64,000 nucleotides of DNA from Dentipellis sp. KUC8613. Taxonomy: Eukaryota > Basidiomycota > Agaricomycetes > Russulales > Hericiaceae. Shown one piece after another: positions 1,399 through 35,962 of the stretch. The stretch spans positions 286,331 through 350,330 of the forward strand of contig NSJX01000022.1 of the NCBI GenBank assembly GCA_002286715.1. Direction: 5' to 3'. The stretch's first letter is position 1. Each line of letters begins with the position of its first letter. The notes under the pieces are model-generated. The model searched no databases. It was not told the origin of the DNA and saw nothing but the letters and a program-made list of their open reading frames with translations. The translations under genes were made by a program, and so were the position numbers.

Positions 1399-2876
1399 TT
1401 ATTGCCACCAGGTCGCTGGAGAACCCCATGGCCTCGACCCCGTTCCAAAATACTTGTCACTCCCCGCACGCCCTCGGAACGTTTCGAGCAGGCGCCGCAT
1501 CTCCTCCGCAACCCTACGCTTCGTCTCAACTTCTTGGCGTTTGTTCCAGCTTCCCTCTCTCTGCCTATTCCCAGCCCACAGGAAGCCGTCTCCAGAATGT
1601 CTCTCGCTGACCTCGGCGTGAATCTCGTCCACCCTTTCTGGAAAGCCCACGCGCTTGAGGTACTGCATTTCCTCGTGGCCAAGCTTGATTCCCCACTCCT
1701 CCGCAACGACCTGCAAGAACAACTTGCTCATATGCTTCTCGAAGATATCCTGCACCTGCACCTGGCACTTATCGCGGAGCTCCTTGCCGACCTCGCGTTG
1801 GATCCTGCGCTGCACCGCCTGCGGGTCCTCCATCGCGAAGATGTCGACATGGTGCCGCCAGTGCGTCATCATCTGCTTCTCCACCTCCCACCGGAACTTC
1901 TCCTCCATTGCACGCGCTTTGCCCTCGAGCATGCTAAAGAAGCCGACGCTCTCGAGGTATGCGCGTTGCTTGGCAGTGAGGGTCGGCAGGACTGCGAGCT
2001 CGACTTCGTTGTCTTTGTCGGTTTCGTCTCCGGATTCGCTGATGTACATCACGACGGAGACGTGCACTTCATTGTTGGGCTGCACACGGACGCGCGATCT
2101 AGGCTGGGACGAAAGTAAGATTTCGTATATGCTCAGAGACTACGTCCCATTGAATCTCACCTGTTTCTTCTTCAACTTCTTCAGGATGCTGCAAGGTTCC
2201 GGAGTCACCCTAGCCGGTATGTGTTTGGGAGCGGCCGATGCTCGCGGGGGCGGAGTCCAACCCAAAGACGATTTCGACTGCGGGAAATTGCAAGGCCGCC
2301 GCGGCGTCGGGCACCACAGCGGAAGACTTTGTTCTAGCGCTTTTTCTCGACGGTCAGTACGTGCGCAAGTCATGTTTCTGGAGTGTGATTGAGTACTCAC
2401 GTTTGATCTCATCGTCCAGCTTGGGCGTGCTGAGCAGCTTGTTGTATTTGGCGCGCTCCTTGCTCGTCATGTTACCCGTCACCTTCCAGTCCTCCTCCCG
2501 CAGTCCCGCCGCTGCGAGGCCGTACTTCCATTCCGCGCGTATGTGGGAAACCAGCGCTCGCAGTGTTTCCCTGGCATTGTGGACCTCCAACCTGCCCAAT
2601 CAATAATCAGTTGTCTATTGTGGTCTAAGCTGCGGAGACAGCAGTGGCTCACCCCCAGTCCATGCTCAACGGCGGCGTCCGCGCCTGGTCGTACTCCCGC
2701 TCGCGCTGCTGCCTCTCCCGACCATACCTCTTGCGTATCTGGTCGAATACCGCGCGTACCTTCTCAGCCTTCGCCAGCTCCATCGCCCGCTGCATGCTGC
2801 CGGCATTCGGGAGGCCGAAGTACGGGACGCCGGACGGGCTGGGAATTTGGTGCGTGTCGAAGTCGAAGTCGAACAT
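1399..2876 (-). CDS. Hypothetical protein, 434 aa, copy A
   Basis: Four exons read on the minus strand: 2876-2653, 2591-2401, 2345-2161 and 2103-1399, all phase-consistent, giving 434 residues. The N-terminus is acidic/aromatic (MFDFDFDTHQIPSP). It is followed by a basic helical stretch rich in RERQQRERE, a Pro-rich linker (WCPTPRRPC...RVTPEPCSILKKLKKK), and a long charged helical C-terminal half ending GSPATWWQ. I recognise no catalytic motif, signal peptide or membrane segment. The paralogue at 48129-49600 has the same length and exon plan, and the two differ by scattered substitutions. That supports a real, recently duplicated gene. It is divergent in direction from nothing nearby and converges on the RRG7-like gene. 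Confidence 0.75.
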
Positions 2877-3896
2877 GTTGGGTGTTACTAGAGGGTACTC
2901 GACGGGTGAATGAGCCGCCTCTTGTATCTATGCTCCATAGAGCGCGCCCACGCCACTGCCGTGGACCGAGCCTGATTTATACTGACTCTGCCAGGACGCA
3001 TAATGCACCGCTCGTCCTGGAACCCGGATCATCGCACCCCTATCGCGGCCCACCTGTACCGACACCCAGACTCGGGAAGTTTTCAATTGCGGTATTCCAG
3101 TGCCCTCTCGTGCACTGGCGCTGACAAGATCCTACCTGACGTCTACGTGGTTTGGCCGCCCACAGCTACTCGGCACAACGTAGACGTGTGCATTTTCACC
3201 AGTTCGCTGTAGTTTGTGATTTCACACTCCTGGATCCGAGTCGAAGCCTGGTGACGCGTCTACGTCGAACGTTACCGCATGTGCTTCAAGCGCGTTCCTT
3301 GGTACGTAGAATTTCGGTCATACACCCGTGGTATGGTCTGCTTATGGAAATGGATACGGGTACTAGTAGCTGGGATGATCGAGATCGCGACGAATGCGCC
3401 ACCTGTGTGTGCATGAGTAGTTTTCTGCGGATATCGATCCCGTGCGGTCGGCCTCGTGTCCGTGCTGCTGTCCATTGCCCTGGTGGCTTGGTGCGCCGCA
3501 TTGCAGATGGATCGGGGGCGTGCTGAGTAGCTCAGAGACGTGGAAGTTGGCCCGCGGGCTCGCTATACTCATCACCGGGGCGTAATTCATGTGTGTGTTC
3601 GTGTCTCGGAGTGAGACTCGGTCACTAGTCACTACGAACACAAGAGACATGTGAGCCTCGAATCATGGTGCCATTGTGCATAGACCCCTGGTGGCTTGAT
3701 CAGCCGCTCTATCGTGTGCCTCGAGAATGCACGAGCTAGGTGTTTTCAAGAGATCGAGGAAGTTGAACAAGGGAGAAGGCGACATGTTCGATGGGTGTTG
3801 ATATGGCCATGGGCGAAAGTCAGAGCGCTAGCTGTAGTACTACATGGAGACGACTTCGGCATATAGCTATATCGCTAATAAAGCACCCCTCATCAT

Positions 3897-3968
3897 GGCC
3901 GCCTGGCGAAATGGCATCGCGTCTGACTACGAATCAGGAGATTGCAGGTTCGACCCCTGCGGTGGTCA
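3897..3968 (+). tRNA. tRNA-Arg (anticodon ACG)
   Basis: A 72-nt cloverleaf folds with acceptor GGCCGCC pairing GGTGGTC (two G-T pairs). The D stem is GCGA/TCGC, the anticodon stem TCTGA/TCAGG and the loop CTACGAA (anticodon ACG). The T arm GCAGG-TTCGACC-CCTGC contains the B box GGTTCGACCCC. There is no intron. Two identical copies lie at 51146-51217 (minus) and 51412-51483 (plus). Confidence 0.95.
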
Positions 3969-5081
3969 AGTAAAGGCACATGTTGTTTAGTTTTGTAACG
4001 TACGCCGATTTATTTGTTTGCTCGCCAAAAACATCAACCATCCCTTCATGGCCAGGGGAGGTATGCCCGAGCTCAACGTCCTGCAATGAATTGTCCAAAG
4101 GATCAACGCCATTCCTCACTAGGCCAGAGTGACACTAGTACTCTAGCTTCCCCTGGCGGTAACTTAGTCCAGGTTTGGCCTTCCCCTCGTCCTGCATGCA
4201 TGAAATCCACCATTGACAGCATACAAATCAACTTCAAATCCCATTATTCCATTCCATTAACAATTCCATTCTTCAACAACAACAACAACAACACACGCAG
4301 AACAACACAAACGCGAGGGAAGAGAACGACTCGGGAGCGGGGAGGACGTAGGAGGGGGAGGGTGAGGGGTGATGATGATGAAGATGAAGGGGGCGGGGGG
4401 CGGAGGAAGAGGGAGGGGTACATACGACAAAGCATCACAGAGCAAGCGAGGATAATGCAGTACGGGGTACGTTGTACGGTACTCGACATCGAAAGCATAA
4501 TACGTATACGGGCGGGGCGGGCATGGCATGTACGGGTCGTGTCATGAGGGGACGTCGCAGAACGGGGCGAAGGAGAAGGGAAGAAAATAACGGGGGGTGC
4601 CGGCATTGTATGTACGATTGTATGGGGTTTGAAAAGAAGGAAGGATCATGTCGAATGATACTCTATAAAGCGTCGCTGGCGAGGAAAGAAGTTGGGTAGC
4701 ATACATAGCATACTAGTAGCGAGCAAAGAAAGAAAGAGAAAAGGTACCCGTGACCGAAGAAGAACCACCAAGAATCCATGGAATAGAATAACACCACAGC
4801 CGCGCGGCGAGAGGGCAAAGAAATCGAGGGACGATGGGGGAAAGCACAAGGGGTTTTGATGGATGGGTGAATGCTGTTGGAACACATGGTTGTATGAATG
4901 CATGGACGAGTGACGAGAGGAAAGAGATGCTTTTGACGCTGTTGACGACATTGACGGGAAACGATGGTGGTGATCACGACCAATAACAAAGAACTGAATG
5001 CAATGCGAGGCGATGCGAATCCGGACCTGAAAGGCGCAAAGACGAACGGGCGACCAAGGCACCCCAACAATCCCATGGAGC
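3969..5081. other. Intergenic; simple-sequence and purine-rich DNA
   Basis: No convincing gene is seen. A CAA microsatellite lies near 4278-4295, followed by a G/A-rich stretch from about 4315 to 4760. This probably includes the 3' untranslated region of the RING/RRM gene, which ends at 5082. Confidence 0.5.
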
Positions 5082-8039
5082 TTAAACCATGCCCGAGATC
5101 CGCTGCGCAAGCGCTTCGACCAGGTGAGTCTCAATGCCAAACTCGCGCGCAAGAACATCGTACGGGCCCTGCATGTTCTGTGCAGGTCCCTGGCTAGGAG
5201 GCTGATACGGACCGTATACGTTGACAGCGGACGACGTTGAGGCAGACGCCGAGTCGGGCGTCTGCAGGCGCGAGCTCGCGGACGATGGAGGGCTGACTAC
5301 CGGGACATGCTCCGCAAACTCTGCGAGACGCGATACTTGCTCGCGTGTGAAGGCTATTCGCAGGGAGGATGATCAGACCATGACACGACTAAGGAAGAAG
5401 CGGGACAAACCTTCGCAGTGCATAGCCGCCTGAAGAACCTGCATGAGCAAGTCGGGCTCGCTCGCAAGGGCCTTCTCCGTCTTGTTCGACATCAGAGTCT
5501 GAAGGGCAGCTGTAAAATCGTAACACATTAGCATGAGCACAATGAATCTCAAAGCGTACAACGTACTCATCGTCACATCTACAAGCCATAACCCATTAGT
5601 GACCATTGCACACAACGAAGAGTAAAGACAACGTACCAAACAGCATATCACGAGTCGCCGGACTCCACGCCGCGCGGCTCTCCATATCCGCCGGGAACTT
5701 GACCAAGATACCCACCAGCGAGTGGAACGGGAGCGTCGGAACCTTCACGAAATGCGACTACCAATCCACGACCAGTCAGCATGCGTCCAGTCCTCTTCCA
5801 ATGAGCACCAGGCTACTCACATCGGGAGCGCGAATCAAATGCAACAGCGCCTTCAACTCCGTCTCTCCCAACAACGCACCCTCCGCGGTGCCCTTGCCCT
5901 GCACAACCGGCCGCGCGCCGTCAAACGCGCCTCTCCACCCCGGGAACAACGCCCGCATAAGCTCCGCCTGGCCACTCCGGGTCACCGTCACCCCACGCGC
6001 ACGCCGCCCACGGCCGAGGACGGAGTTCTGCGCGGTGCGAAGGGCAGCACGTGCGGCGTCCTCGTCAGCCATCTCGGCATACGCATGGCTCAACGTCTTG
6101 CCCTTGCGGTCGAGAAGGACGTGGACGTGCTTCACGGGATGTTTGAGCCATGCGCGGATCGCAGGGGGCGTAATGTCCTGGATATTTGAAATATGATCAG
6201 AGGTAACTTTAGAGGATGTTGGCAAAGAAACGTACCCAAGGGACATTGTCGATCCTCAGCACCGGCACCTCGCCCGGCCGCCCCGACGCCGACGCCTGCC
6301 TGCGCGCGCCCACAGGCGTGGACGCGCGGGGCACCCCGCCGCCCAGATCAAACAAATCAAACCTGTCCATCATCGCGCCAAACTCGCTCGCGCCACCCTT
6401 GGGATTCGTCTTGGCCGCACTGCGCAACTTGAAGTCGTCGACGCCCTTCTTGCACACGGCACACTCCATGTCCTTCTCGCCGACGATGTTGAGGGCGCTC
6501 GTGAGGCATGCAGAGCACAGAATGTGCTTGCACGGCTCGAGCACCGCAAGCGAAGTCGGCGCGAGCCCGCATACAGTGCATGTGGACGTGTCATCTTCAC
6601 TAGCGCTCTTCGGGGGTGACACTGGCATGCACGGGAATGCAGCGGGAAGAGGCTGGAATGTGTCTTGCGTAAACCCGAATCCAAAGGACGGCGCAGGCGA
6701 GTCGAACGGGTCATTGAGGGCGAGCGAGTGCGTGCGAGGCTGGGACGGCGAGAACGAGGACGGGTACGGCGTGAACTCGTCCTCGTCGATGTCGAAGAGA
6801 TTAGTCGGCGTCTGCACAAGCCATATTAGGACCGGGTTGCTAGGCAAGTAAGGATAAAGTAGTGGGGCACGCACCTGACCGAACGCCGGGCGACGCCGGG
6901 GGTATGCTGGGTCTGACAGAGACCCTTTAAGCTTCAGCCGAGACACGTCTGCCGGGCGCGGTGGTGGGGTATTGAGCGCCTGCAGCGTGCGGCGTGCGGG
7001 TGTATGCGGGCCTTGGCTGGCCAGTGCGCGTGGCGCGGTCTGCGGGGCCTGGTGGACGACCGTGTGCGAACGCGCACGACGCTGAGCCTGGAGGAACGCG
7101 GGCTGGAGGAGAGCTGTATGGACCGACGCATACACATGGGCGTTGCAAGGCCGGAAAAGGCGCGGACGATCGATGGCATGTCAGCGTGGCGCGTGTATGG
7201 CGGGACCGGGAGACTCACCTGCGTCCAGCGGAATGTGAAGAGCAGAGAAGAGGACCAGGATGGACCGAGGACACGATGCAGGGGGGTGGGATGATGAGCA
7301 CACGTAACGTTATCCCGCATCAGGGCATCACAGATCACATACCGTCGTGGCCTTGGTTGTGCAAAAACAAGCCTGCGCCCGAGACATTCGACATGTCCGG
7401 AAAAGCCTGGTCGTTGCCTGAACCGCGGAACGCGATAGGAATAGAGCATATAGGGGCATAGAAGGCAGCGCTCGGTCAGCACGTGTCCCGCGAGATGAAA
7501 ACGCCGCATATATGCGCCTCTTCCAAGCGAAGGGGCGCACCACACGCCGCAGGAAGCAGAAAAGAGGGCGCGGGAAACACACACGCACCGTCATCGTCCG
7601 CAAAGTCGCCTACGCGGATGCCGTTCTCGCTCGCGCGCTCGCGCCAGTCGAGCTCGTCGCCCTTGCCGGGTGTGAACTGGAGCGCAAACGACTGCTGCCC
7701 GAGCGAGCCGGGAGTATTGAGCGCGGCGGAGCTGCTGGGGGACCACGAGCCACGGCTGAGCGGGGTCGTGAAGGGCGTCGAGAGCACGCTGGCGCTGGTG
7801 CCGGGCGTCGCGGGGTGGTGGTCGTGGAAGACGTTCTGCATCTGGTGCTGCGGGTGCTGGTTTTGATGTTGCGCTTGGTGCCGCTGGGTGCGGGGGATAC
7901 GCTGGGGCGTCGCGGGCTGGCGATATGCGGGCGTGACGGGCGCAGAGGCGGGGGCGAGCTGGGCGAAGGCGTGCGCCTGGGACTTGCTCGGGTGGACGGG
8001 GGTGTTGCTCGTCGTCGTGCTCGCCGTCGTGAAGGGCAT
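5082..8039 (-). CDS. RING finger plus RRM domain protein
   Basis: Nine phase-consistent exons give 733 residues: 8039-7589, 7417-7343, 7113-6875, 6811-6236, 6177-5821, 5757-5637, a 12-nt microexon 5578-5567, 5509-5411 and 5353-5082. The first 330 residues are low complexity (Gln/His, Pro, Ser-rich, with FTPGKGDELDWRERA). A RING-HC finger follows at about 334-380 (CTVC...CKHILCSAC...CAVC). An RRM-like domain starts near 441 (LRIDNVPWDITPPAIRAWL, then KTLSHAYAEMADEDAARAAL). The C-terminus ends with a short helix (REFGIETHLVEALAQRI). RING suggests ubiquitin ligase activity and RRM suggests RNA binding, so an RNA-associated E3 is the natural inference. I cannot name an orthologue. The exon 2/3 junction is the least certain boundary. 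Confidence 0.8.
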
Positions 8040-18099: not shown

Positions 18100-18102
18100 A
18101 GT

Positions 18103-18141
18103 GGATGACTTGCCACAGCATAAAAAATATGATAATCTATG
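18103..18141 (+). repeat. Harbinger left terminal inverted repeat
   Basis: 39 bp, perfectly complementary to 22794-22832. The outer end is GGATGACTTGCCACAGC. Inside the repeat the sequence becomes A/T-rich. Confidence 0.95.
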
Positions 18142-21202: not shown

Positions 21203-22656
21203 TTAAGACTCGTATGACGGTAAGGTATGAAATCGAGAGACGCGATCATGCTGTCGCTGCTCTCTAAACAACATATTCTCGAATGTCTTCCAGACAGTGT
21301 CGTCCTCCGCTGTATGCAACCAATGTCCCATATATACTGTACGGATTTGATTGATACCCACCTTGAGTGTGCGGAGGTTATGAAGCCGCAAACAAAGTTC
21401 GAGGATGTCTGCGCGCTTCGGTATATGACTGATATTCAGAGGCACGCGAAGCCGTCCAAAGGAGCCCTGAAGTGCCCGCATACCCCATTCTGCCGTCTGC
21501 CTATAGGAGAGGATCTCGCGATCAAATGCGAGCCGCTCTGCAATCTCCATAGGTGTGCCTTCAAGCTGGTGGCCGACCTTCAATGGAGCCCGTATACGAC
21601 CTTCAATCTGCGATGTTCCCCGCGGAAAGGCAGTGTCTGCTACGATGTAGTACCCCGGCGGTGTCCTTGTACGAAGCTTCTCGTATATCCCTTGAGCGAC
21701 ACGTGAATCGTGCCAACTCCCGGGAGCATTGAGGCGTGCAGCAACAACAAGACCTTCAGGAAAGAATCAGAAGAACACCTTATGCGATATCGAAAGAACA
21801 CACCCTTTGGCGAGTACACGATTACCGAGCTAACCATGTGCTCAGACATCCAACCGTTATATGTCGCGTTCTCGACATCCAGATCCTCCGATGTTTGAAC
21901 GAGCAGATTGAGACCATCCACAGTTGCGAACGCGCCTTCAAGACGTGGGTGCCGAGCCATCACCAGTTCCGTCAACTCTTGGAACTCCAAGGCTCCATGC
22001 GGCCATGCAATCCGAGCCTCATTTATCTCCCGCATGCTTTCCAACAGTATGTCGAGACAAAATGAGACATAGCGAGAGACGGTGGCAGGTATGAGCGCAA
22101 ACACCTGCCCCAGCAGCATCTCGCATACGGTGGAATTGAGATAGTGAAGGGTGAGGCCGAGCGCACCCTCAGCATCGAGCGAGCGACGATCCGGCCGTGC
22201 AGCAAGAGCGTCACTATCGGGGCGCGGTATTGGCCTCGTCACCCATCGATAAGCAAACCCTTTCTCAAGGAGGAAGATGAAGGTCGTCATATCGATGCCC
22301 ATGGTCGTGATGAAGGCCCGGTCACTACGGCTGTCGAAAAGAGCTGACCAGGGTGTCGTGCCCCGGGGATCGGGGAGGAGGTGGAGGCGTTGGAGGTATT
22401 GCCGAGAGAACTGGCGCTGGAGATTGCGGGACAATTGAGCTTCTTCAGCGCCCGCAACGATGGCAGCAGCCAAAGTACGGCGTTCAGCATCGTCGTCTAT
22501 ATCGTACTGCTCGTCTTCTGATAGAAAGAGATTGAAGATGAACCAATCGAAAGCTGCGTTGTATGACATCAGCGAGTATACAGGGCAAACGATGTGGGCG
22601 GAAGTCGCAAGATACACTGGGGGAGACGATGGAGAAGTGGTCGCTATTGGGGACAA
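21203..22656 (-). CDS. Harbinger transposase (DDE_Tnp_4-type nuclease)
   Basis: Two exons, 22656-21804 and 21753-21203, with a 50-nt intron, give 467 residues. The N-terminal part is helical (the helix-turn-helix region of the family). DDE landmarks are visible: ATVDGLNLLV (first Asp), NAPGSWHDSRVAQGIYEKL (second Asp), VADTAFPRG, and EWGMRALQGSFGRL (Glu). A shorter start at MSYNAAFDWF is possible. The gene converges on the Myb-like gene; the two stops are 231 bp apart. No disabling change was seen, so with the accessory protein and intact ends the element is a good candidate for an autonomous copy. Confidence 0.9.
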
Positions 22657-22721
22657 TGCGGGCTGAGCACCATGCCTATGCTACGATAATTTGCAATAAA
22701 TTAGTCCATACGGTGCTGTGG

Positions 22722-22793: not shown

Positions 22794-22832
22794 CATAGAT
22801 TATCATATTTTTTATGCTGTGGCAAGTCATCC
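22794..22832 (-). repeat. Harbinger right terminal inverted repeat
   Basis: 39 bp, perfect reverse complement of 18103-18141, followed by the AGT duplication. Confidence 0.95.
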
Positions 22833-22896
22833 AGTCGCAGATGACGTCGACAAACGTTCGTCGAGCCTGTAACAATCGCAAGAGCACATGTACATG

Positions 22897-23054
22897 TAGT
22901 CTCGGTTCCAGACGTTCAGGGAGGCGTCTCGGTATCCCGGCCCGGTATTCAAGCGGAGATCAAAGGCGGAGTCAAAAAAAGCGGTCAAGTTTCGAGTGGG
23001 GACGCCTCCCTGAACGTCTGGTGCACTTCGTATAGAGAACCGTACATCGGTGAC
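22897..23054 (+). repeat. Left terminal inverted repeat of the large element, with hairpin arms
   Basis: 158 bp. After the outer TAGTCTCGGTT, arm 22908-22928 is a perfect 21-nt reverse complement of 23001-23021 (start GACGCCTCCCTG). A conserved core between the arms reads CGGAGATCAAAGGCGGAG followed by AGTC and seven A. The inner part (ACTTCGTATAGAGAACCGTAC) is shared with the right end. Confidence 0.88.
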
Positions 23055-23134
23055 CATCAGTCACAGAATGTGCCTGATCGTCACATAAGTGACCGTTATC
23101 CGCGTGATGCAATCGACTGTGTTGGCATACTCTA

Positions 23135-23853
23135 CTGTCCCTGACCCGGTAATGCAAACGGGCCTAGTAATGCAAACGCTCGATTTCTGCAATTACGACT
23201 CGCATCTAAGACACACAAAAAATCAGGGATGTAGAACTATACCTGTTGATACGGGATCCAGAAGTAGTAGTTGTGAAACGGAATATTTCAAGAGAGAGAA
23301 ATCGAAAGGTGTGTTTTGGAAGATCTCAGGCAGGTGTAACGAAATTTCGGAGGGCCCGGCATCGTCTTGAAGATTCTCCGATCTACACCAAATTCACCAT
23401 GCTTGCTTATACATATCTCAGGTATCCTCTTGTCAAATTTGAAGAGCTCACGACAGCGGGAATGTGCCCGTTTGCACTGTTTTGCACAAGAGCAATGCAA
23501 AAGCTCGAGATTTCGACGGCTTTCGCCGGTGCCGAATGAAACTCCGCCCACGCAAGGCTTGATTTGCCTCAGTCGCCCGCAAACATGCACGCATTCGGCA
23601 TTGCGGCAAGTCATCGGAGCTTCAATTCCGTTGATGCGATTTCATCGCACCTCCATGCTTTGGCGTGCAAACGGGTCTCTCGTTTGCAACGCTGCCGAAT
23701 GTAACTTCCTGTCCTCAAAAATATTTGAGACAACGAGGAAGCATGACCAAGATGCATAAAAGCTCATTTTTGAAGTTAAACGGGAAGATTTCAATGAAAT
23801 TGAGGGCACGGGACAGTAATGCAAACGCGTTTGCATTACCGGGTCAGGGACAG
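23135..23853. mobile_element. Short non-autonomous TIR element (TA target)
   Basis: 719 bp with perfect 26-bp terminal inverted repeats beginning CTGTCCCTGACCCGGTAATG, each flanked by TA. There is no credible transposase frame inside. The motif GTAATGCAAACG recurs just inside the left end, and the right end forms a second local palindrome (TGCAAACGCGTTTGCA), so the tip motif is iterated. A TA duplication fits Tc1/mariner/pogo-type elements, but the family cannot be settled from the ends alone. Confidence 0.75.
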
Positions 23854-23950
23854 TACAGATCTACAGAACAACATCGGTGTACACAGAGAGATGGGCCATA
23901 ATAAATGGCTCGTTAAATTAGCGTGACCCGATCAAGGCCTTGAAGCTTTG

Positions 23951-24109
23951 AAAAAAAGATCATGCAAGACTTGAACCGACCACGTCTGCAGTAACCGTCA
24001 CTGAAACCAGCAAAATTAGCAACTGAGCCACAGTGCCGCATTGGGATCGAACCCAGACCCCGTGCAAGCTGACAAATGTTGCAACGCTACTAACCACTGG
24101 CCTACGGAA
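23951..24109 (-). ncRNA. Tandem tRNA-like Pol III unit (candidate SINE or tRNA relic dimer)
   Basis: Read on the minus strand, unit 1 (24109-24035) has an A-box-like TAGGCCAGTGG and a B box GGTTCGATCCC. Unit 2 (24040-23959) has an A box TGGCTCAGTTG and a B-box-like GGTTCAAGTCT. A run of seven T (minus strand) at 23957-23951 follows directly, as a Pol III terminator would. Neither unit folds into a clean acceptor stem, so these are not ordinary tRNA genes. No second copy was noticed in the window. Confidence 0.55.
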
Positions 24110-24408
24110 CTGACATGCAAGCTCTGCCAACATGTCCTATGTACTATACGACGATTGATGATTACATCATCATCCAAATGCGGAATTCCGAGTGAAAAGT
24201 CTTTGAACTGTTACCATCATGTCAACAACAACACCTTCTCCTGAAGTTGACACCTCATTTGACAGCCTCTTCGATGATCTTGACTCTGACATGGACCTGG
24301 ACAATGTCGATAACATGCCAATTGAAGACCTTGATGGATCCGACAACTTCTCCGACATCGATCCTGAGGTCACACCTCCACCGATACAGCATGCTCGGAC
24401 TGCAGCAC

Positions 24409-24766
24409 TGTTGAAACGGGTAACCTCCTAGTAGGACGCGCGGGTCGCGTCTCTCAGTGATGGGGATAAATCACTATATGGATATGTATGTACCTAGTAG
24501 GACGCGCGGGTCGCGTCTCTGTGTGCTCGTTAGTTACATGTCGTATCTACGATCGAGAAGCGTAGAAGCTCACCTCAGTGATGGGGATAAATCACTGAGG
24601 AGCTTTCGGTCCGATCGCGCACGCTATGTCTCAGCGCGCGCGGTGGCTTGGAACTGTACAGTACCAAGCCACATATCTAATCAGTTCGATAGCGAGTATA
24701 GTAAGATAAGATAAGGTCACCATGACTTCACGGTGGTTTGCCTTTCGGCGTCCATGGGTTCCAACA
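24409..24766 (-). repeat. Copia 3' LTR (element orientation)
   Basis: 358 bp, starting TGTTGAAACGGG and ending GGTTCCAACA on the plus strand. It contains two copies of CTAGTAGGACGCGCGGGTCG and two of CAGTGATGGGGATAAATCAC, giving internal direct repeats. Confidence 0.95.
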
Positions 24767-24833
24767 CGCCCCCTCAAACCTCCTGAAGTCCAACATCGCT
24801 CCTTCTAACACGCCCCCTCCAACATGTGTCCCC

Positions 24834-27800
24834 TCACATCTCCTGAAGCCCAACTAATGATCGCATCCATTGAATCTTCGGGCGTGCGAGTGCCTTCGTG
24901 AAGACATCAGCAGCCATATTGTCTGTCGGACAATAGTCCACCTCGACGTCGCGTTGCTCGATATGGTGACGGATGAAGTGGTATCGGAGGTCAATGTGTT
25001 TTGTGCGAGGGTGGTAGACAGTTTCGAGGGCTAGGAGTATGGCTCCCTTATTGTCGGCATAGATGAGTGTTGGGTGTTGTAGGGTGCCCAGGGTCTCGCT
25101 AATGAGGTTGCGAAGCCACAGCGCCTCTTTCGTTGCCTCTGCCATGGCGATGTATTCAGATTCCGTGGTCGATTGAGCTACGGCGGATTGCTTCCGCGAG
25201 GCCCATGAGATGGCGCCGCCGTCAATCAGGAATGTGTACCCAATGATAGAGTTCTTGTGCTCGGGGCCTCCCCAGTTTGCATCGGAGTATCCAACAATAC
25301 CATCGCTTGTTTTACCGTACGTGAGCCAGAATTCACGTGTCCCTTTGAGATAGCGAAGAACACGCTTGGCTGCCTCCCAGTGCAGGCGGCCTGGGTTTTG
25401 CGAGAATTGTGCGAGGGTGCTCACAGCAAAAGCGATATCGGGCCGGGTGCCCACAGCGGCATAGTTGAGTGCTCCTACAGCTTCGCGATATGGAACATCG
25501 CGCATATCTTCGAATTCGCGTTGCGACGTGGGTCCTTGGTGCTTGCTTAGGACACTCCCGGGCTCCATTGGGGCAGAAATGGATTTAGCGTCCTCGAGAT
25601 TAAATCGGGAGAGCATAGTGTCGATGTAAGCATGCTGCGATAGAGAGATCTTCCGCCCCCTGCGATCCCGTTTGACCTCGAGACCTAAGATCCAGTGGAG
25701 CTCGCCAAGATCCGTCATTTCGAAGTGTTTACACAGGCCGGTCTTAACTTCAGTCAGAAGTGCGACAGAGTTAGCGATGATCGTCAGATCGTCAACAGCA
25801 GCCGCCACGATCGCGATGCGATCGCCAGATTGGAGAATAAATATGCCAGGATCCGCAAGAGAGCGTTTGAATCCGAGGGCTAAAAAGACGGCGCACAGCA
25901 TCTTGTACCATTGGCGGCCGGATTGTTTCAGGCCATAAATGGGACGTTTCAGTAGACAAACAAGGTGTTCCAGGCCTGGTTTCTCAAAGCCGGGCGGTTG
26001 TCGCATGTATATGGTTTCGTCGAGTTCGCCGTGCAGGTATGCGTTCTTCACGTCCATTTGATGGATTTCCCAGTCGAAGCGAGCCGCAATCGCGAGCAGG
26101 AAACGTAGAGAGCCGAGCTTTGCAACAGGTGCGTACGTATCGGTGTAATCGAGGCCAGGAACTTGGCTAAAGCCCTGCGCCACAAGGCGCGATTTGTATT
26201 TGACAATCTCGTTCTGGGCATTGCGCTTCAGTTTGAAGACCCAGCGGCATCCGATGACGTTCACGCCTTTGGGGCGCTCAACGAGAACCCAAGTCCCCAG
26301 CTTGTCCAGCATACCAAGCTCGACGCCGATGCTACTGCGCCAGTACATCCAGTGGTCACCGCGACGAGCCTCCTCAACGGTACGCGGCTCAGTGGGTTCA
26401 GCAGGTTCGGCTGCCATGGCGTATTCAACACCTTGCATCGTGAGGTAGTAGCCGGCTTCGTCGGCGTCCGTGGATTCCGACCAGTCTAATGATAGCTCGA
26501 GCGCGGCAAATGCGTCGGCGGTACTCGCGGCATCCGCAGGCGGCGGTGATGGTGCACGAGTGACAGGCGCACGGGCCGTGGTCGTTGGAGCCGTCATGCC
26601 CCGCGGGAGCGTGCCGGAGCGAGTGCTTGCCGTGCCTCGCCCTGCTTCGAGGTTGCGCACGTAATCACTGCCATAACGGATCCGAGTGGATCGGCGTGGG
26701 GCGTCGGGTGGTGCTGGCGTGGCAGGGTGAGTGCGAGGTGGGGTGCGTGGTAATGCGGGCGGGGGGTCGTCGTCAGCGTCGTCAGTGGCGTCCTCGACTG
26801 TCGCCGGAGGAGGCACTCGTGGCGCGGCAAGTGGTGCTACAGCGGGGATGGCTGCGTCGGTGCCAGCAGCATCAGGGGCTTCCGGGATGGCTGGCGCTCC
26901 GTCCGCATTGGGCGCTGCAGGCGCTCTGAACGGCGGGTCGTCATGGAACCCGTCGGTTATCCATGCGAGATCGTCGCTGGGCTCGGTAGCTGTTGTATTG
27001 TCTGGCCTTTCCAATGCTGCGCGTTCATCCCAGACCACATTGCGCTCTACGCTGATGGTGCGCTTGCCCGGCCAGTAGACAAGGATACCTTTGCTAGCTG
27101 AGCTGTAGCCAACAAAGCGCCCTTCGTCGGCCTGTGGTTCAAGCTTGCGGCGGTCCTCAACACGGACCCAAACTCGGCAACCCCATTCGTGTAGGTTTGT
27201 CAAATCGGGCACTACACCCGTCGCACGTTCGATCGGGGCGGCACCAGGGAGGGAACGCGATCCAGTTCGGTTCCAAACCCAGACAGCATATTGCATTGCG
27301 GCGGCCCAGAGGAATTTCGGAAGCTTCGCGTCAAGTAGCATGGCACGTGCACGGCCCACGCTAGTGCGGAAAAATCGTTCCGCCACGCCGTTCTGGGCTG
27401 AAGAGTCGTGAACGGTCATTTCGTGATGCGTACCACGGTTTTTCAGGTATGCGATGAACTCGTTACTGAGGTATTCCCCGCCACGGTCCGTGCGTAAGGT
27501 TTGAATGTGTTTGACATGGCGTTGGACTTCCGCAAATTTCTCATACTGCTTGTATAGCGTGAATGCTTCGTCCTTCGATTTGAGGAAGCTGATTGCAATT
27601 TCGTACGTGCTATCATCCACGAATGTCATCGCATATGAGTGACCGTGTAACGAGCGGACCTGTGCCGGCCCCCAAAGATCGGATTGTACTAGTTCGCCAT
27701 AGCGTGTTGCTCGAGGACGAGTTCGCGCTTTCGGGAAAGGGGCACGTATAGCTTTTGCACGTGTGCATGCCGTGCAGATGGCACCTGGGGGATCGGGTGT

Positions 27801-29447
27801 CAATTCAATTCCCTTGATGGTTCCATTCGCAACGAGACGTCGAACCGAGCTGACTGAGACATGTCCGAGGCGGCGGTGAAGATCGAGGGCAGTCATTTTG
27901 ACAGTAGATGCAGCAAGCGCATGAGGGGATTCTGAAGTGCGATCCATGAACGCGGGGCTCCGAAATAGATATAGCGAGTCTCCACGCGGTATACGTGCGA
28001 TCGGAATGGCTGTCGGGGAGTAGACAGTGCAGTATCCCCCTTTGAACAGTGTGCTGTAGCCGGCCCGATCGAGTTTCGGGATGGACACGAGTGTCATGGA
28101 TATCGTGGGTGTGTGCAGTACATTGCGAAGGACGACGCGCGTTTTGGAGTCGCCGAACGGTAAGTCGATCGTGAGCGTTCCGCGTCCAATCGCTGTGAAT
28201 GTCGTCTTGTTTGCTGCACGAACGGCGAGGGGTTTAATCGTCACGTAATCCGTCAGTTCCTGTCGGTAGCGCGTGAAATGTGAACTAGCGCCTGCATCCA
28301 TGCATCGGATCGGCTCGACATAGTTGGAATCCTCTGAGATTGGCACCATCGCGTGATCTATCGAATGACATTCAGTCGTAGCTGCGAGTGCAAAGGGGGA
28401 GGGGTAGCAGTCGACAAATTCGTCGATCTCTACGACGTTGGCATTCGCTTCACTGTCCTCGGCCGCCAAGGCGTCAGCCTCCTTCTCCTTCCCCTTTTCT
28501 TTCTCTTTCTGCTTCGGCCCTTGCCCCTCCTTGCCACCTCCTGGTCCATAGCAATCCGCGGCGAAGTGGTTGAGCTTCCTGCAGTTGTTGCACGTCTTCC
28601 CATACGCTGGGTTGCTTGCCCCCTTTCCTCCGCGCCGGCCCTTCCCTTTCTGTCCTGCGTACAGTGCCGTCTCGTCAGACGCACTGCCTTGTTGGAGGCG
28701 ACGGCGGTCATATTCATCGCGCACGTGGTACATGACGTCGTCCGGGGTGAGCGGCTTGCGGTTCATGCGCGCTGCGGCGGTGATGGTCGAGATCGTGGGG
28801 TCGAATGAACGAGGGAGGGATGACATGATGACGGCTGCATAATCGTCGTTTGAGAGTGGTGCGTTCATCGTGCTGAGCTGGTCTTGCAGTGCGATCAGAC
28901 TGTCGAGGTGCGCGCGGACGTCCGCACCCTCGGCGCAACGCAGTTCCATCATCTTGCGGCGGATGTCGATCTTGAACAGATCGGATCTGCCTTCGTATTC
29001 GGCACAGAGCTGGCGCCAGATCATGGAGGTCGGCAAGTCCTTGAACTTGATCAAGAGGGATTCCGGGATCGTCGCGAAGAGTTGTGCAAGGATCATACAC
29101 TCCCGCTTGAAGTACTCGTCCCAGTATTCGACTTGCTTCTCGAAGGCCTCCCAGTCTGCATCCGTAGGCTCAACAAGCTGCTCAGGGGATGAGGATCCAG
29201 CGTCCGTTCCATCGCCCTTCGCTTTACTATCCTTCCCGGCGGGCCTCGGCTCCGGCGGCGATGGCATAGTTGCAGGAGGTACCCTCACGGCACCCATGAT
29301 GTGTCGCATCAGACCCTTGGCGCCTAACACCGCTAGGGTGCACGCCTTGTACGTCGTCCAGTTGCTGCCGTCGGCGGCGAGCTTCGGAACGACGCTTATC
29401 TTCGAGTCGACGGCGAGCGACATATCAATTTCGGGGCCAGGGCCCAT
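24834..29447 (-). CDS. Copia gag-pol polyprotein
   Basis: 1537 residues without stop or frameshift. In order: a gag region (about 1-290); a CCHC zinc knuckle CNNCRKLNHFAADC; an aspartic protease motif DAGASSHF; a pre-integrase region LHRRLGHVSV; integrase catalytic landmarks QSDLWGPA, LRTDRGGEYLS and QNGVAERFFRT; reverse transcriptase (WVFKLKRN, DVKNAYLHGELDE, LKRPIYGLKQSGRQWYK); and RNase H (YSDANWGG, QSTTESEY). The RT active-site box reads AAVDDL where YVDD is commonest, keeping both aspartates. The ATG is only 4 bp inside the 5' LTR. All enzymatic landmarks are present, so the element is potentially active. Confidence 0.97.
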   Translation of the reverse strand: MGPGPEIDMSLAVDSKISVVPKLAADGSNWTTYKACTLAVLGAKGLMRHIMGAVRVPPATMPSPPEPRPAGKDSKAKGDGTDAGSSSPEQLVEPTDADWEAFEKQVEYWDEYFKRECMILAQLFATIPESLLIKFKDLPTSMIWRQLCAEYEGRSDLFKIDIRRKMMELRCAEGADVRAHLDSLIALQDQLSTMNAPLSNDDYAAVIMSSLPRSFDPTISTITAAARMNRKPLTPDDVMYHVRDEYDRRRLQQGSASDETALYAGQKGKGRRGGKGASNPAYGKTCNNCRKLNHFAADCYGPGGGKEGQGPKQKEKEKGKEKEADALAAEDSEANANVVEIDEFVDCYPSPFALAATTECHSIDHAMVPISEDSNYVEPIRCMDAGASSHFTRYRQELTDYVTIKPLAVRAANKTTFTAIGRGTLTIDLPFGDSKTRVVLRNVLHTPTISMTLVSIPKLDRAGYSTLFKGGYCTVYSPTAIPIARIPRGDSLYLFRSPAFMDRTSESPHALAASTVKMTALDLHRRLGHVSVSSVRRLVANGTIKGIELTPDPPGAICTACTRAKAIRAPFPKARTRPRATRYGELVQSDLWGPAQVRSLHGHSYAMTFVDDSTYEIAISFLKSKDEAFTLYKQYEKFAEVQRHVKHIQTLRTDRGGEYLSNEFIAYLKNRGTHHEMTVHDSSAQNGVAERFFRTSVGRARAMLLDAKLPKFLWAAAMQYAVWVWNRTGSRSLPGAAPIERATGVVPDLTNLHEWGCRVWVRVEDRRKLEPQADEGRFVGYSSASKGILVYWPGKRTISVERNVVWDERAALERPDNTTATEPSDDLAWITDGFHDDPPFRAPAAPNADGAPAIPEAPDAAGTDAAIPAVAPLAAPRVPPPATVEDATDDADDDPPPALPRTPPRTHPATPAPPDAPRRSTRIRYGSDYVRNLEAGRGTASTRSGTLPRGMTAPTTTARAPVTRAPSPPPADAASTADAFAALELSLDWSESTDADEAGYYLTMQGVEYAMAAEPAEPTEPRTVEEARRGDHWMYWRSSIGVELGMLDKLGTWVLVERPKGVNVIGCRWVFKLKRNAQNEIVKYKSRLVAQGFSQVPGLDYTDTYAPVAKLGSLRFLLAIAARFDWEIHQMDVKNAYLHGELDETIYMRQPPGFEKPGLEHLVCLLKRPIYGLKQSGRQWYKMLCAVFLALGFKRSLADPGIFILQSGDRIAIVAAAVDDLTIIANSVALLTEVKTGLCKHFEMTDLGELHWILGLEVKRDRRGRKISLSQHAYIDTMLSRFNLEDAKSISAPMEPGSVLSKHQGPTSQREFEDMRDVPYREAVGALNYAAVGTRPDIAFAVSTLAQFSQNPGRLHWEAAKRVLRYLKGTREFWLTYGKTSDGIVGYSDANWGGPEHKNSIIGYTFLIDGGAISWASRKQSAVAQSTTESEYIAMAEATKEALWLRNLISETLGTLQHPTLIYADNKGAILLALETVYHPRTKHIDLRYHFIRHHIEQRDVEVDYCPTDNMAADVFTKALARPKIQWMRSLVGLQEM

Positions 29448-29451
29448 AACC
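29440..29451 (-). other. Candidate Copia primer-binding site (half tRNA-iMet type)
   Basis: The sequence next to the 5' LTR reads GGTTATGGGCCC on the minus strand. Its complement, GGGCCCATAACC, resembles the anticodon stem-loop of initiator tRNA-Met (GGGCTCATAACC), differing at one base from the version I know. Copia-type elements often prime from such an internal tRNA fragment. The sequence overlaps the gag start codon. Confidence 0.45.
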
Positions 29452-29809
29452 TGTTGAAACGGGTAACCTCCTAGTAGGACGCGCGGGTCGCGTCTCTCAG
29501 TGATGGGGATAAATCACTATATGGATATGTATGTACCTAGTAGGACGCGCGGGTCGCGTCTCTGTGTGCTCGTTAGTTACATGTCGTATCTACGATCGAG
29601 AAGCGTAGAAGCTCACCTCAGTGATGGGGATAAATCACTGAGGAGCTTTCGGTCCGATCGCGCGCGCTATGTCTCAGCGCGCGCGGTGGCTTGGAACTGT
29701 ACAGTACCAAGCCACATATCTAATCAGTTCGATAGCGAGTATAGTAAGATAAGATAAGGTCACCATGACTTCACGGTGGTTTGCCTTTCGGCGTCCATGG
29801 GTTCCAACA
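29452..29809 (-). repeat. Copia 5' LTR (element orientation)
   Basis: 358 bp and identical to 24409-24766 except for one base near the GATCGCGC tract. It is followed by the AGCAC duplication. Confidence 0.95.
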
Positions 29810-32287
29810 AGCACTACGTGCCAACATTCAAGGCAATATTGCAACCAAAATCACAAAGGTACTGGCCTGCATGGCTGAAGAAGGTCTTGATGTGGTGCTT
29901 TTTCTCGAATATCTGAGCTGGGGCGACAAGGACTGCATTTCAGATCGACGACTGGTCTATGAGCGCACAGCGCTTTTGTCAAGTGTGGAGCTTCCAATGA
30001 TTCTGCGGAGATGGTGGAGCCCACCTGGAGGACGGGCTGAGAGGCATCGGGGTGCTCTGAAGGAATTTGTTGTGGAATGTGCAGCTGATTTGGCCAAGGA
30101 AGAAATGGCACGTATCGCTCCGATGATGACCCCTTCCCCAGACCCCTTGTCCATGGAATCATTGACATCATTGGACTTTTCCAAGCTGTCTCAGCAGCTG
30201 CAGTCACCTCAGGGATGCCCTATACTGTGGTCAATCTTGCGCCATGCAGGGTGGAGCAAAGAGCAGGCTATGCACAATTCTCATAAAACACCAGAAAATG
30301 TATGTATCCTTTGTTCTTATTTACATCCTGTTCTCAGCAATAATTTCAGGTCATCATGAACATCCTTTCTATGCTATCATATACAAGATCTCATCGCCGT
30401 CACCGTTTACCCATGCTCTGGTCAATTTACCTTAAATCCTGTGGTCTTTCTGCTCGTGCATTTGATGCACTCCATGCAATTGGACTTCTAATGAGCCACA
30501 AGTGGACAACAATAGCATACAGCAATATTGCAAAGACAGCAGAACGTGCTGCACAAGACGCTGTCCGGAATCAAGCTACGTTCATTTCACACGACAATCT
30601 GAATATCCCCAAACGGGTATTTTCTATGCGGCTCGACAATCAGAGTCATTTTCACAGTGCATGTGCAGGAACATTATGGGTTCTTCCTGACCACATTTCC
30701 TTTCCTTCAACCTTAAACTGGGAGCTCCGAGAGACACGTCGTGAAGGCAGCAAGACACCATACAACTTCACCGAAATCCTTGATCCGAACCCGGCACTGC
30801 ACCGTCGTCTTCGCAACCAAGGTATTCATCGTATCCTACGCTTCTTGCTGGATTCCCCTGCATTTGTTAATTATCAAGAACACAATGATCCTGTGCTCTC
30901 ACCTCCTCCACCGGTCAACTTGTTGCCTTGCGGACCTACCCATGTCATCAAGCAGTTCATCCTACGCACCACAGACATTGATGAAGCCAGCTATGAAGGC
31001 AACGAGAAAGTCCTTGAAGAATGGCAACATCAGCTAGGGCTTGATTCATTGGAAGAAAAGAAAGAAACATCAATAAATCGTCTCATTCCGATTGTCGGAG
31101 ATCAACTCACAGTCGAATGCCTCCGTGGTTTGGCAAAGTATCGCCATGATGACATCAATGGCTTGGAACGACTTGACTGGCTGATCACTGTCAATGGGTT
31201 CTTTCATTTAGAAATTGCCTTTGCAAACTCTCTGCACAAACAATATGTTGGAACGTCAGGCGGTATCGGTCTTCACAGAGCATTCGACTTACTCAACCGA
31301 AAAGGCCTTCTTTTGACCCAAGTCAAGGGCCCATTCTGGCACCATCTCGATGAGGCACTCACACACATTGCGGAAGCCCACTTTTGGGCATTGTGGATGA
31401 TTGTCGGGAAGGTCACAAGACTTGAAGATCTACTCCAGCAACCACCTGAAGCACTTGTTTTGCTCGCAGAGACAATCTATGATGAATATGCTTCTCGGCG
31501 GGCTCTTCGGCTGATGCAGCATTGTGGCGAGAAGGATGAAGTCAAATACCAATCCATCCTGTTCAATACCGATGTGCTCTCGTACCTTGACCTGCGCGAA
31601 GCTACACGCACAGGAGACGTTGGCCGTCTCGAGGATCTGTTTCCATATCTCCTGATGCGCTTCGCTGGTGGAGGAAACAACAAGTATATGATCGAAATGT
31701 TGGAGATCCTGCAGGGGCTACACAGAGAATGGCCCGATACATTGAAGTAAGTATCTCCTTGTATTCTCAACACACAGGAAAGCTTACTTTCGAATTTAAA
31801 GGCATATCGTCCGCAATCACTGCTGGTTGATTAACCGAACGGGGAAGCGTGATGGCTTCGTTCCTGTTGACCGAGCCCAGGAGCAGAACATAAAAGATCT
31901 TAAGGTTACATACCATTCATTTGGTCCCGGCGCAACACTGGCATACCTCACAAAGATCTCGCCTGCAGTCCCTGTTCTTCGAGAAGTCAAAAAGCATCTG
32001 AAGTGGCAACTGAATACACTACTCACCCGTGGAGACCGACATTCGTCACCCGCTAAGGAGAAAGATGTCGCAATGTACGCCAACATTGTTCTCAATGAAG
32101 GATGGTATACATACGAAGCAGGCCGCACGGTGAAGAAACCAGACGACCGCGCGAAAGACTTCGTAACTCAGGGTATAATCACCCTTTTTCAAGAGAAGGC
32201 AATCGAGCGCTGGTGGAATGGGCGGTCTTTCCCTCGTGCAACACAGGAGAAGTGGTTAGAAGAACATTGAATTAGATCAGTTGTACT

Positions 32288-32997
32288 TTAAACTAGTTTC
32301 TGCAGCGACGGCCCGGGCACCTGAACACTTGAAGGAGTAGGCGACACCGAGACTGGAAGTCTCGGCGACACAAAAGGAGGAGGGTCGACGGAAGGTGCCT
32401 GCCGCGTAAGCACATTCCGCTCATAAGGCATGTAGAACATTGGCGACGAGGGCAGCATGCGGCCGTCGAATGATGTGTGCGAACTTGATGCCGGAGGAGT
32501 TGGCAATGATGAGGTGGCAGATCTGCCCGGTGTCACGAAGGCCGAAGGATGGGGAGGGTAAGGCAAAGCAATGTTGTGGGTGGTTCTAGGCATGCTTTCG
32601 TGTGAGGGAGACATGTCCGGCAGATATTGCCCAGTCGCACGGGTCGGATATGATGCCGTTGAGTAAGGCGAGTGTGGCGTAGATGGCGCAGCTGTGTGGG
32701 ACAGATGCAGAAGAGACCGGTCTGAAGGGGCGCTATCAGTGTCACTAACATGTTGGTCGTGCAAACGGTACTGTACCTGAGCTGCCTGTCAGCCCTGTTG
32801 GACTCTCATACGAGCGGGCGGAGTGATATTGCGGAGCGAAATTCATGGTATACGTTGTAACAGGCTGTGAATGATCTTGACGAGAGAGTGGCAGGAGACG
32901 AGACTGATACGTGGTAGGTGACCCTGGAAACGGGGTGGACGTGGGCATCCGCGGCATCTGCGCATCGTAAGTACAGTTCAGGAAGATAGATATACAA
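32288..32997 (-). other. Pro/Ser-rich open frames of uncertain status
   Basis: Between the convergent stops of the DUF6589-like and RecQ-like genes, the minus strand has adjoining Pro/Ser/Tyr-rich frames (PSRSATSS-like and SPTPSSVQVPGPSL). They could be a downstream exon of the helicase gene or a separate small gene. I could not find a phase-consistent splice linking them, so no coding call is made. Confidence 0.3.
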
Positions 32998-33083
32998 CTT
33001 ACATTGGCAATATTACTAGTTTCAACTGCCTTCGCGCGAGCACGCGAAGGTCGCGGCTGGCGCGGCTGGCGTTTGCGCTCCTC

Positions 33084-33547
33084 TCACCGCTGTTCTTGCT
33101 CCTCTTTCTTGGCACGCTTCGCTTCTGCTTTCTTTTTGACTGTTTCCGCCTTCTTCGCATCCATCTTGAGTCGATGAGCTTCTTCTTTGGCCGCCCGTAC
33201 CTGGTCATCGACGCCTCGCAGCAGGTTCAGCACCTCGGGACCATGTCGCGAAAGCCACACCCAGTTCGCCGCTGGTGGACCGCCGTTCGTAACGTCCTCG
33301 ACTGTTCGCCAGCGCCCATTTGATGCGAAAGCGGTGAGAACCGTGTCGGGCATGATACCCTGGACGCCGTATGGCACCGTCGAGTAGCGCTCGAACCATA
33401 TGTCCGAACGCCACTTCTCTACCACTGTCCTCGCTTGGGCGAGATGATCCTTCTGCCGATGTGCAGGACCTTGCTCGGGATCACGCATGACGCGCTTGCC
33501 ACAAGCGTTCCGGTTCTTGCTGGGTGTCGGGTGGGAAACAATGGACG

Positions 33548-33579
<32 letters not shown>

Positions 33580-35324
33580 CCGTTGTTGTCGCCGTCAGCG
33601 CGAGGCCGGACAGGTGTGTGAGGGCGGGCATCAGTGTGCATGTTTGGTTGACAGACGTCACAACAGACGCCGAGAGGCACTGCGATGGTGATGTAAGAAA
33701 TTTCGTACTGCAGAATCGGAAGGAGGCACTCACGATCTCGAACCGGCGGGTTGAAGAAGTACTCGTCTGCGATATCGCGACGACAACGCTCTCCCTCGGT
33801 CCAGGTGCGCAGGCCATCCTCGATTGTCTTCACATACTCAATTTCATCTCCTTCCTGACGCTTTGTTTTCCCTTTCTCTTGGAAGACGGTGGGCTGAACC
33901 AAAAGGTAAGCCGTCCCTTGGATATCTTTTTGTCGAGCCGTGCGGCCCGCGCGCTGAAACCAAATTGACAGTGAACTCGGTGCCATAAATTGCACGCTGT
34001 TCTTGATTCCCGGAAGATCACATCCCTAGGTGACGTATGCTTCAGTACCTGCAAAAATCACAGAGCAGACTAACATACTATACCAGCTGCTTCAGAGGCG
34101 AACCACACGTCTGTGGAGCCATCTCGAAAGCGCTCATAGCTGTCACGTTTGGACTGTGCCCCGCGCCGCGCATTGTAACACGAGACGCGCTCGCGCAGAT
34201 GCTCAGGCAGGCGCTCGCGAAACCAACGACACGCTTCCATCGACACCTGTATGTCATCAAAAAACACGATCGTGCGTTCGAGGTTGGGTCTTTCTTTCGT
34301 GGGGAGTAGGAAATTGAGGCTGTCGAGGTCAGATTTGCCGGCTTTCATGTGAACAACATGCCACTCGAGATTCGGTCGGTCGTTCCCTAAGTTCAGATGG
34401 TATGTGTTTGCCCTATTGATGTGAACAGATTTTCGTATTGTGCATAGGTCCGTTGGCGTCAAGGTAGCGGAAGTCACGAGGAACGGCACGCGCGCGGACA
34501 CGAATGCACGTAGAGTCCCAAGCTGGAGGTATTCATTGCGAAACTTCTCCCCCCACTGTGTGATACAGTGCGCCTCGTCGATAATGAATGCCGATATTCT
34601 CTGCGCGAACGCGGGCGCGCTGAGAAGCGCGCGAAATTTGTCATGTTGGAGGCACATATTCGGTGAGGTGACGAGTATCTGATATTTTCCCTTCTCAATA
34701 TCCTGTTTTGCACAGGTCAGGACGTCATCGCGCCTAGATAACGAGCATGCACACCTCTCGAAGGTCTTCGGTGTAGGTTGTGCCGTTCACAGCCTGCGCG
34801 GAGAGGCCCATTGCACGGAAGCGACGAGCCTGTCGGTACATCCTTGTCGGTCAGTTATCAATCGTGATTGTTCTCGCTAGCATACTAACCTGGTCTTCCT
34901 CGAGAGCATTAAGAGGTGAAATTATGATGATTATCTTGTCATGCTGGTAAAAGAGTGGAAGCATAAAAGGAATGGTCTTGCCTGCACCCGTTGGTGCGAT
35001 AAGCTCGCAGTCCACGCCGAGAACAAGACATTCGGCGATATCCAATTGCCAACCATGAGGAACTATACTGCCATTAGATCGCTTTTTGCATTCTTCAGCC
35101 ATGGTAGCCCTGGCTTTGACAGGGTTGTAATTGAACTTTGCCTTAGCCAGTTCCCGGGCGTCTTTGAGCAAGGCTTCGGACGCCTCTTTCTGCCTTTTGT
35201 GGGCTGCTGCTCGGGCTGACAAGGAGTCGGAGGCTAAGGGTGTCCCGGCATCCGCGGACTCCGGCTCGCAGGGCGACAGCGTGGTGTTGCGCTCTGCGGG
35301 CTCGGAGTCGACGTCGGATTCCAT
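33084..35324 (-). CDS. RecQ-family DNA helicase carried by the large element
   Basis: Five exons, 35324-34890, 34829-34755, 34702-34079, 34025-33734 and 33679-33084, give 673 residues, all phases consistent. Helicase motifs appear in order: Walker A APTGAGKT, motif II IIDEAHCI, motif III VTSATLT, motif V ASEAAGIGCDLP and motif VI FQRAGRTARQ. A Cys-rich stretch follows (ECERCRR-like, then LGVCCDVC), matching the RecQ zinc-binding region. A polymorphic Asp/Asn repeat (GTTGTC units near 33549-33592) and a Lys-rich tail (KKAEAKRAKKEEQEQR) end the protein. RecQ enzymes unwind DNA 3' to 5'. In fungi, RecQ-like genes also occur at telomeres (TLH genes), so a subtelomeric origin is an alternative to transposon cargo. 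No lesion was seen. Confidence 0.88.
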
Positions 35325-35455
35325 GGGCGTAGTGGTAGAAAGCTAGTGCATGCCAAAGTCTTACACTAGTCTCATTTTCGTCAGCAACAATGCGTAAAAT
35401 TCGACGCGAACGCGACGCGTTTCCCTCACATGACGCTCAACATCGATTATATAAT

Positions 35456-35659
35456 GTCACGGTGTACGGTTCTCTATACGAAGTACACCAGACGTTCTAG
35501 AGGGGGATCCATGCGCGCGAACTGACCGATTTTTTTGACTCCGCCTTTGATCTCCGTCTCGGTAACATCCGGTTGCGCCACTCGATATCTCATCGGTACC
35601 ACTCTCCTCGGATACAGAGCGCAAGGATCCCTCCTCTAGAACGGCTGGGAACGAGACTA
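35456..35659 (-). repeat. Right terminal inverted repeat of the large element, with hairpin arms
   Basis: 204 bp, ending ...GAACGAGACTA before the ATGTACATG duplication. Arms 35488-35510 (CCAGACGTTCTAGAGGG...) and 35625-35648 are near-complementary, with one bulge and one mismatch. It shares the CGGAGATCAAAGGCGGAG core and the inner ACTTCGTATAGAGAACCGTAC with the left end. It has a longer spacer between core and outer arm, hence the greater length. Confidence 0.85.
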
Positions 35660-35962
35660 ATGTACATGCAGGGCTCGGAAGTGCAAGAAAACGACTATAG
35701 TGAGTGACTGTCAACATGTTGCTTGGAAGCAGGGGCCTTCTGCAGCGGACGCGGAGATAGACGGGGCACGCGCACTTAGAAGCCAAATCCAAAGCCAAAG
35801 CGGAACCGCTGCCGTTACCCATTACCATTACCATTCTGCTTCGCTTCACGGTTTCCCGAACTAAACATCATCACATCCCCACAATCCCCGCAGGCTGCAC
35901 ACTCACCAGATTCTCCTTCTCCCCCACAGCCCCGCACTGATCACCCGTCCCAAGTCCGAAGA

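Follow-up and report, generated by a model that had tools for sequence, protein, structure and literature searches.

To understand what kind of mobile element a DUF6589 gene and a RecQ-type helicase gene form when they lie together between inverted ends, we examined the segment at positions 22897-35659 of a 64,000-nucleotide stretch of the Dentipellis sp. KUC8613 genome (the window, C86:286331-350330) and searched for its relatives throughout the 34.1-Mb assembly of 171 contigs. The initial annotation had proposed that this segment represents an undescribed transposon type. The underlying observation was confirmed and its interpretation was supported in part. The element has inserted with a 9-bp duplication of its target and is a DNA transposon of the cut-and-paste kind. 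It belongs most probably to AcademH, a lineage of the Academ superfamily, an assignment made by matching published descriptions and not by the sequence of the transposase.

The 12763-bp element is delimited by inverted ends that lie directly inside a perfect direct repeat, and a further end of the same family is present at the start of the window:

22888-22896, plus strand: left copy of the target-site duplication ATGTACATG, directly outside the left tip
22897-23056, plus strand: left end, with the tip TAGTCTCG, an internal palindrome and the conserved inner block TGCACTTCGTATAGAGAACCGTACA
35488-35659, minus strand: right end, with the tip TAGTCTCG and an internal palindrome comprising the arm CCAGCCGTTCTAGAGGAGGGATCC and its inner partner
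35660-35668, plus strand: right copy of ATGTACATG, directly outside the right tip
1-95, minus strand: left end of copy B of the same family, the interior of which is a run of N

Alignment within the window bore out the inverted ends with common tips and internal blocks described previously: the left and right ends are 83-85% identical across ~102-104 bp, the tips align too and the inner block is strongly conserved across both. The perfect 9-bp repeat reported outside both tips is also present, as is the third matching end, which is 100% identical to the left end over 95 bp. The latter belongs to a separate copy, B (C86:285023-286425), which is flanked on both sides by ACCCGGATG and has its second end just beyond the window. 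The tip 8-mer TAGTCTCG, located at 22897-22904 (plus), 35652-35659 (minus) and 88-95 (minus), is weak evidence when taken alone, with at least three matches in 18 of 100 shuffled sequences. It was rejected as a genome query, giving 278 forward and 273 reverse exact matches, compared with 480 and 539 when the 8-mer was reversed as a control. Since the 8-mer is therefore useless for searching, end queries of 160 and 210 bp were used instead.

The left-end query gave 18 matches (the left end itself, the right end of the window element and 16 others) and the right-end query 21, many places being common to both. Both tips were found on one contig for nine copies:

A, the window copy on C86: 12763 bp, both genes
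B, C86:285023-286425: contains N
C, on C9: 1424 bp, short
D, on C1: contains N
E, on C150: contains N
G, on C22: 6875 bp, both genes
H, on C11: 6906 bp, both genes
I, on C121: 260 bp, short
M, on C88: no perfect 9-bp duplication

Perfect 9-bp duplications flank the first eight of these (A, B, C, D, E, G, H and I), and all eight differ: ATGTACATG, ACCCGGATG, GTCCTCATA, CAAGAATTG, AAATAGAGC, CCCTAGAAG, GTGGAGCGC and AGGACATCT. The chance of one perfect 9-bp match is ~3.9e-6, and because eight of the nine two-ended copies genome-wide have such duplications the observation stands above chance. The flanks of copy M match at six of nine positions when its tip is set at the start of TAGTCTCG, and this copy was counted as a miss. 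Thus the additional paired-end copies that the initial annotation proposed to look for exist in the element's own genome, and eight of the nine have matching 9-bp flanks. The count covers two-ended copies, leaving out the single-ended F (C90) and N (C61), a piece on C105 and a pair designated J/K. The ends at C128:1046159 (J) and C67:7592 (K) have the same flanking 9-mer, CCCGAACAG, as if they were a single insertion that had been rearranged or split. Copies C and I retain the same ends and duplications without most of both genes. Copies B, D and E look ~1.4 kb long and are not counted as short copies, because 1100-1145 bases of each are N. A search of the same genome for an empty site, using the joined flanks of A, G, H and E (four of the nine two-ended copies), gave no other junction-spanning match.

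The two convergent genes that had been read between the ends, one of the DUF6589 family on the plus strand and one for a RecQ-type helicase on the minus strand, were recovered in the window copy, together with two nested insertions:

23135-23853, strand not assigned: nested inverted-repeat element of 719 bp with the terminal inverted repeat CTGTCCCTGACCCGGTAATGCAAACG and TA on both sides, not a part of the putative Academ-type element itself
24219-24408, plus strand: putative transposase exon 1, first part, from the inferred ATG up to the Copia insertion
24409-29809, minus strand: nested Copia retrotransposon with long terminal repeats (LTRs) of 358 bp and a 5-bp duplication, AGCAC
29810-30299, plus strand: remainder of exon 1, its first bases being the second AGCAC; a splice donor, GTATGT, is predicted at 30300
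30350-31746, plus strand: exon 2, with the DUF6589 core (PF20231, E = 3.5e-91); splice sites inferred
30593-30595 and 31100-31102, plus strand: predicted catalytic Asp codons in exon 2
31802-32270, plus strand: exon 3 (PF20231, E = 7.8e-22), with a predicted splice site; codon 31881-31883 encodes the predicted catalytic Glu
33084-35324, minus strand: RecQ-type helicase gene of at least four exons, with an uncertain 3′ end; PF00270 in two exons

Copies G and H contain the same two convergent genes, with DUF6589 in three exons, so that both genes are present in three copies of the family (on C86, C22 and C11). Identity is 89% between G and H and, across the genes, ~70-71% between the window copy and G. 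The exons of the DUF6589 gene in the window match those of G and H, and its splice sites are consistent. The helicase carries the motifs APTGAGKT (Walker A), DEAH, TSAT and QRAGR, and a structure database gave RecQ (E 6.6e-29), BLM and WRN as matches to the spliced product from copy G; the element's helicase is a RecQ. The window element is not intact: since the Copia element sits within exon 1 of the DUF6589 gene, this copy is broken and would no longer make its putative transposase. The Copia element is young, with one difference between its LTRs in 358 bases, and holds a long open frame. The window copy is also ~770 bases longer than G in the stretch that holds the 719-bp insert, which looks like a short element of the Tc1/mariner type. 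Without both inserts it would measure ~6.6 kb, near the size of G and H.

The proposal that DUF6589 supplies a DDE-like recombinase, to be checked by comparing its predicted structure with RNase H folds, agrees with the structural modelling. The predicted fold, with a predicted local distance difference test score (pLDDT) of 88.5, is that of a DDE transposase; its nearest solved folds are those of Hermes and the P element, followed by ISCth4 and RAG1, and three acids are conserved (D309, D478 and E720). DUF6589 is thus probably a DDE transposase whose RNase H fold carries a large insertion of helices, as in Hermes, the P element and RAG1. Two of the three catalytic residues suggested in the initial annotation appear to be right. 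The third had been placed in FHLE, which is wrong; the glutamate most likely resides in exon 3 (nucleotides 31881-31883), within AQEQNIKD. A GxxH sequence, in which G510 and H513 are invariant, occupies a place in DUF6589 similar to that of the C/DxxH motif, which PMC9587614 locates between the second D and the E in hAT, P, MuDR, Kolobok and Dada transposases. When solved structures were searched by sequence with the DUF6589 alignment, nothing was found below E 0.8, the best match (E 0.81) being unrelated. DUF6589 occurs in many mushroom genomes, and the function that the model suggests is probably that of a DDE transposase; if so, mushroom gene counts would include transposases listed as hypothetical proteins. 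The names of the DUF6589 proteins P0001-P0120 are mostly hypothetical or DUF6589 domain-containing protein, and one, P0022, is named as a transcriptional regulator with an aminotransferase domain.

The association of the two genes extends beyond the three copies that carry both. DUF6589 is found at 12 places in the genome (19 matches), and a relative of the element's helicase lies within a few kb at eight of them, in keeping with the earlier suggestion that the helicase accompanies DUF6589. The two genes are convergent in seven of these eight places and divergent on C112 (C112:124226-128580); helicase relatives without DUF6589 occur on C36, C163 and C106. One locus, C161:398800-407000, reveals a second family, in which positions 1048-6851 enclose both a DUF6589 gene and a helicase relative; the tips are TAGACTGG and TAGGCTAG, and a perfect 9-bp duplication, GTACCAACT, flanks them. 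We estimate that ~0.15 chance 9-mer matches are expected in the search of this region, before TAG is required at both tips. At the other DUF6589 locus on C161 (177.8 kb), no inverted match was found in the two pieces searched, nor were paired TAG tips flanked by a 9- or 10-bp duplication. For the C7 locus, one piece with the far left side outside it was compared with itself and searched for tips, and no pair emerged. The loci on C112, C68, C93, C82 and C164 were left out of the end searches.

AcademH is described as the helicase-encoding lineage of Academ, present in animals and fungi and generating 9- or 10-bp duplications, while AcademX, of the same superfamily, has a nuclease in place of the helicase and 3- or 4-bp duplications, these lengths being related to the helicase and the nuclease, respectively (PMC10045372). 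Fungal Academ elements carry PF00270 or recQ_fam helicases (PMC6416283), low-copy AcademH has been reported in Basidiomycota (PMC10799480) and putative non-autonomous Academ elements are reported in another mushroom (PMC8290104). Citing papers credit the description of AcademH to Kojima (2020, Mobile DNA 11:15). The element fits AcademH because a 9-bp duplication (in eight of nine two-ended copies and in the C161 family), a RecQ-type helicase and, as judged from the predicted structure and the conserved D, D and E, a DDE transposase occur together in a fungal DNA transposon, as in these descriptions. The proposal of an undescribed type is accordingly not supported, as AcademH is already in print with the same set of features (PMC10045372, PMC6416283).

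It might nevertheless be argued that DUF6589 defines a DDE transposon superfamily of its own, as yet without a name, whose likeness to AcademH goes no further than the length of its target-site duplication and its helicase. Pfam still lists PF20231 as a family of unknown function, no direct sequence link between DUF6589 and Academ was made here, and the word DUF6589 was absent from the literature searched, although the link may be stated elsewhere. However, published AcademH and fungal Academ elements combine a fungal host with a 9-bp duplication and a RecQ-type helicase, so that a second superfamily having all three would be a coincidence, and we consider this quite improbable. A KolobokH element, which would likewise be a fungal DDE transposon, combining a Kolobok transposase with a RecQ helicase, is a very remote prospect. 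PMC9587614 describes KolobokH as encoding a RecQ helicase and as found only in fungi, and one red-algal Kolobok as having a RecQ helicase on the complementary strand, but it gives Kolobok duplications as the 4-bp TTAA, whereas those observed here are 9 bp and never TTAA, and the helicase is a separate convergent gene. The initial annotation had also raised the alternative of a mobile segment related to subtelomeric RecQ (TLH) genes, considered here as a TLH-like segment moved by recombination and not by transposition. This accords with the RecQ identity of the helicase and otherwise carries virtually no weight, since the helicase sits between paired ends with target duplications, copies with paired ends and perfect 9-bp duplications occur on several contigs, some deep inside large ones (C11 and C1), and such ends and duplications also bound the short copies C (1424 bp) and I (260 bp).

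The predicted catalytic-domain fold with its helical insertion may also be a point of likeness to hAT (Hermes), P element and RAG1 proteins, from which DUF6589 differs in having no sequence match to any solved structure. To our knowledge, none of these three systems carries a helicase gene, and hAT duplications are 8 bp long. MuDR, which makes 9-bp duplications, was dropped as a candidate, Pfam having given DUF6589 alone in the core exon.

In an AcademH-like mechanism, the DUF6589 transposase would bind the block-structured ends through a shared block, GAACGTCTGGTG, and the inner block. It may then excise the element, by the predicted DDE catalysis, and join it to target strands 9 bp apart, after which gap repair would yield the 9-bp duplication. 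The helicase could act as a helper that unwinds or resolves either repair intermediates or the ends, the latter perhaps in the form of terminal hairpins. Although the window copy would lack a transposase of its own, its ends might still be moved by the enzyme from another copy.

A role for hairpins is raised by the palindromes within the ends, the arms of which are, at the left end:

22908-22928, plus strand: outer arm, CCAGACGTTCAGGGAGGCGTC
23001-23021, plus strand: inner arm, which matches the outer arm perfectly in reverse complement for 21 bp

In each of the four end types (A_L, A_R, G_L and G_R), a loop of ~65-115 bases separates the two arms of a 20-24-bp inverted repeat. The inner arm keeps its first 10 bp, CCAGACGTTC, in all four, and beyond this the distal 11-14 bp of the arms vary between end types and agree best with their own partner, with scores of 8-11 between an outer arm and the inner arm of the same end type, against 7 or less for every other inner arm. 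Thirteen of 14 tabulated ends have this pattern, but they are close duplicates of these four types and hence not independent; the exception is K_R, which has lost its outer arm. When folded as single-stranded DNA, A_L (22897-23031; z = -5.16), A_R (35485-35659; z = -4.24), G_L (z = -3.26) and G_R (z = -3.44, with the outermost 8 bases excluded) each formed a hairpin that none of 200 shuffles equalled. In the second family on C161, the left end also folds as a hairpin (z = -3.69), and the right end does not, 179 of 200 shuffles doing as well (z = +1.25).

It is possibly a new feature that the distal palindrome differs between the four end types while its two arms stay complementary in every type, as though selection were acting on a hairpin. 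A literature search for palindromes or hairpins in Academ elements gave, among the 20 of 2,462 papers listed, nothing on point as judged by titles and the starts of abstracts. Because there are just four end types from one genome, with the left ends interrelated and the right ends likewise, the paired-arm pattern is no more than suggestive. Alternatively, the palindrome of each end may simply be a pair of inverted sites to which the transposase binds, their likeness maintained by gene conversion or by the specificity of that binding, and no hairpin would ever form. We put this at a little under an even chance: the constancy of CCAGACGTTC in the inner arm of all four types is as expected for a protein-binding site, but a single transposase would be expected to prefer one and the same site on the left and the right, and the distal 11-14 bp differ between ends and match their own partners best. 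We tentatively suggest, as a less likely possibility, that each end of these DUF6589-RecQ elements is selected as a DNA hairpin, which the element's own RecQ helicase opens or resolves in excision, integration or repair; the distal palindrome would then vary from end to end and from family to family, each change being matched in the partner arm. If true, this would be a cut-and-paste DDE transposon with ends that are read partly by shape, and self-complementary ends with type-specific arms would offer a concrete idea of why such elements carry a RecQ helicase.

Outside the element, a 346-codon open frame at 21640-22680 (minus strand) of the window, for which no Pfam family was matched, bears a resemblance by eye to HARBI1/Harbinger-type nucleases. 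A repeat of 34-39 bp (window 22797-22833 and 18102-18138), with which the element's left flank begins, is also found in inverted pairs ~390 bp apart on C98, C100 and C69, indicating a separate family of short inverted-repeat elements.

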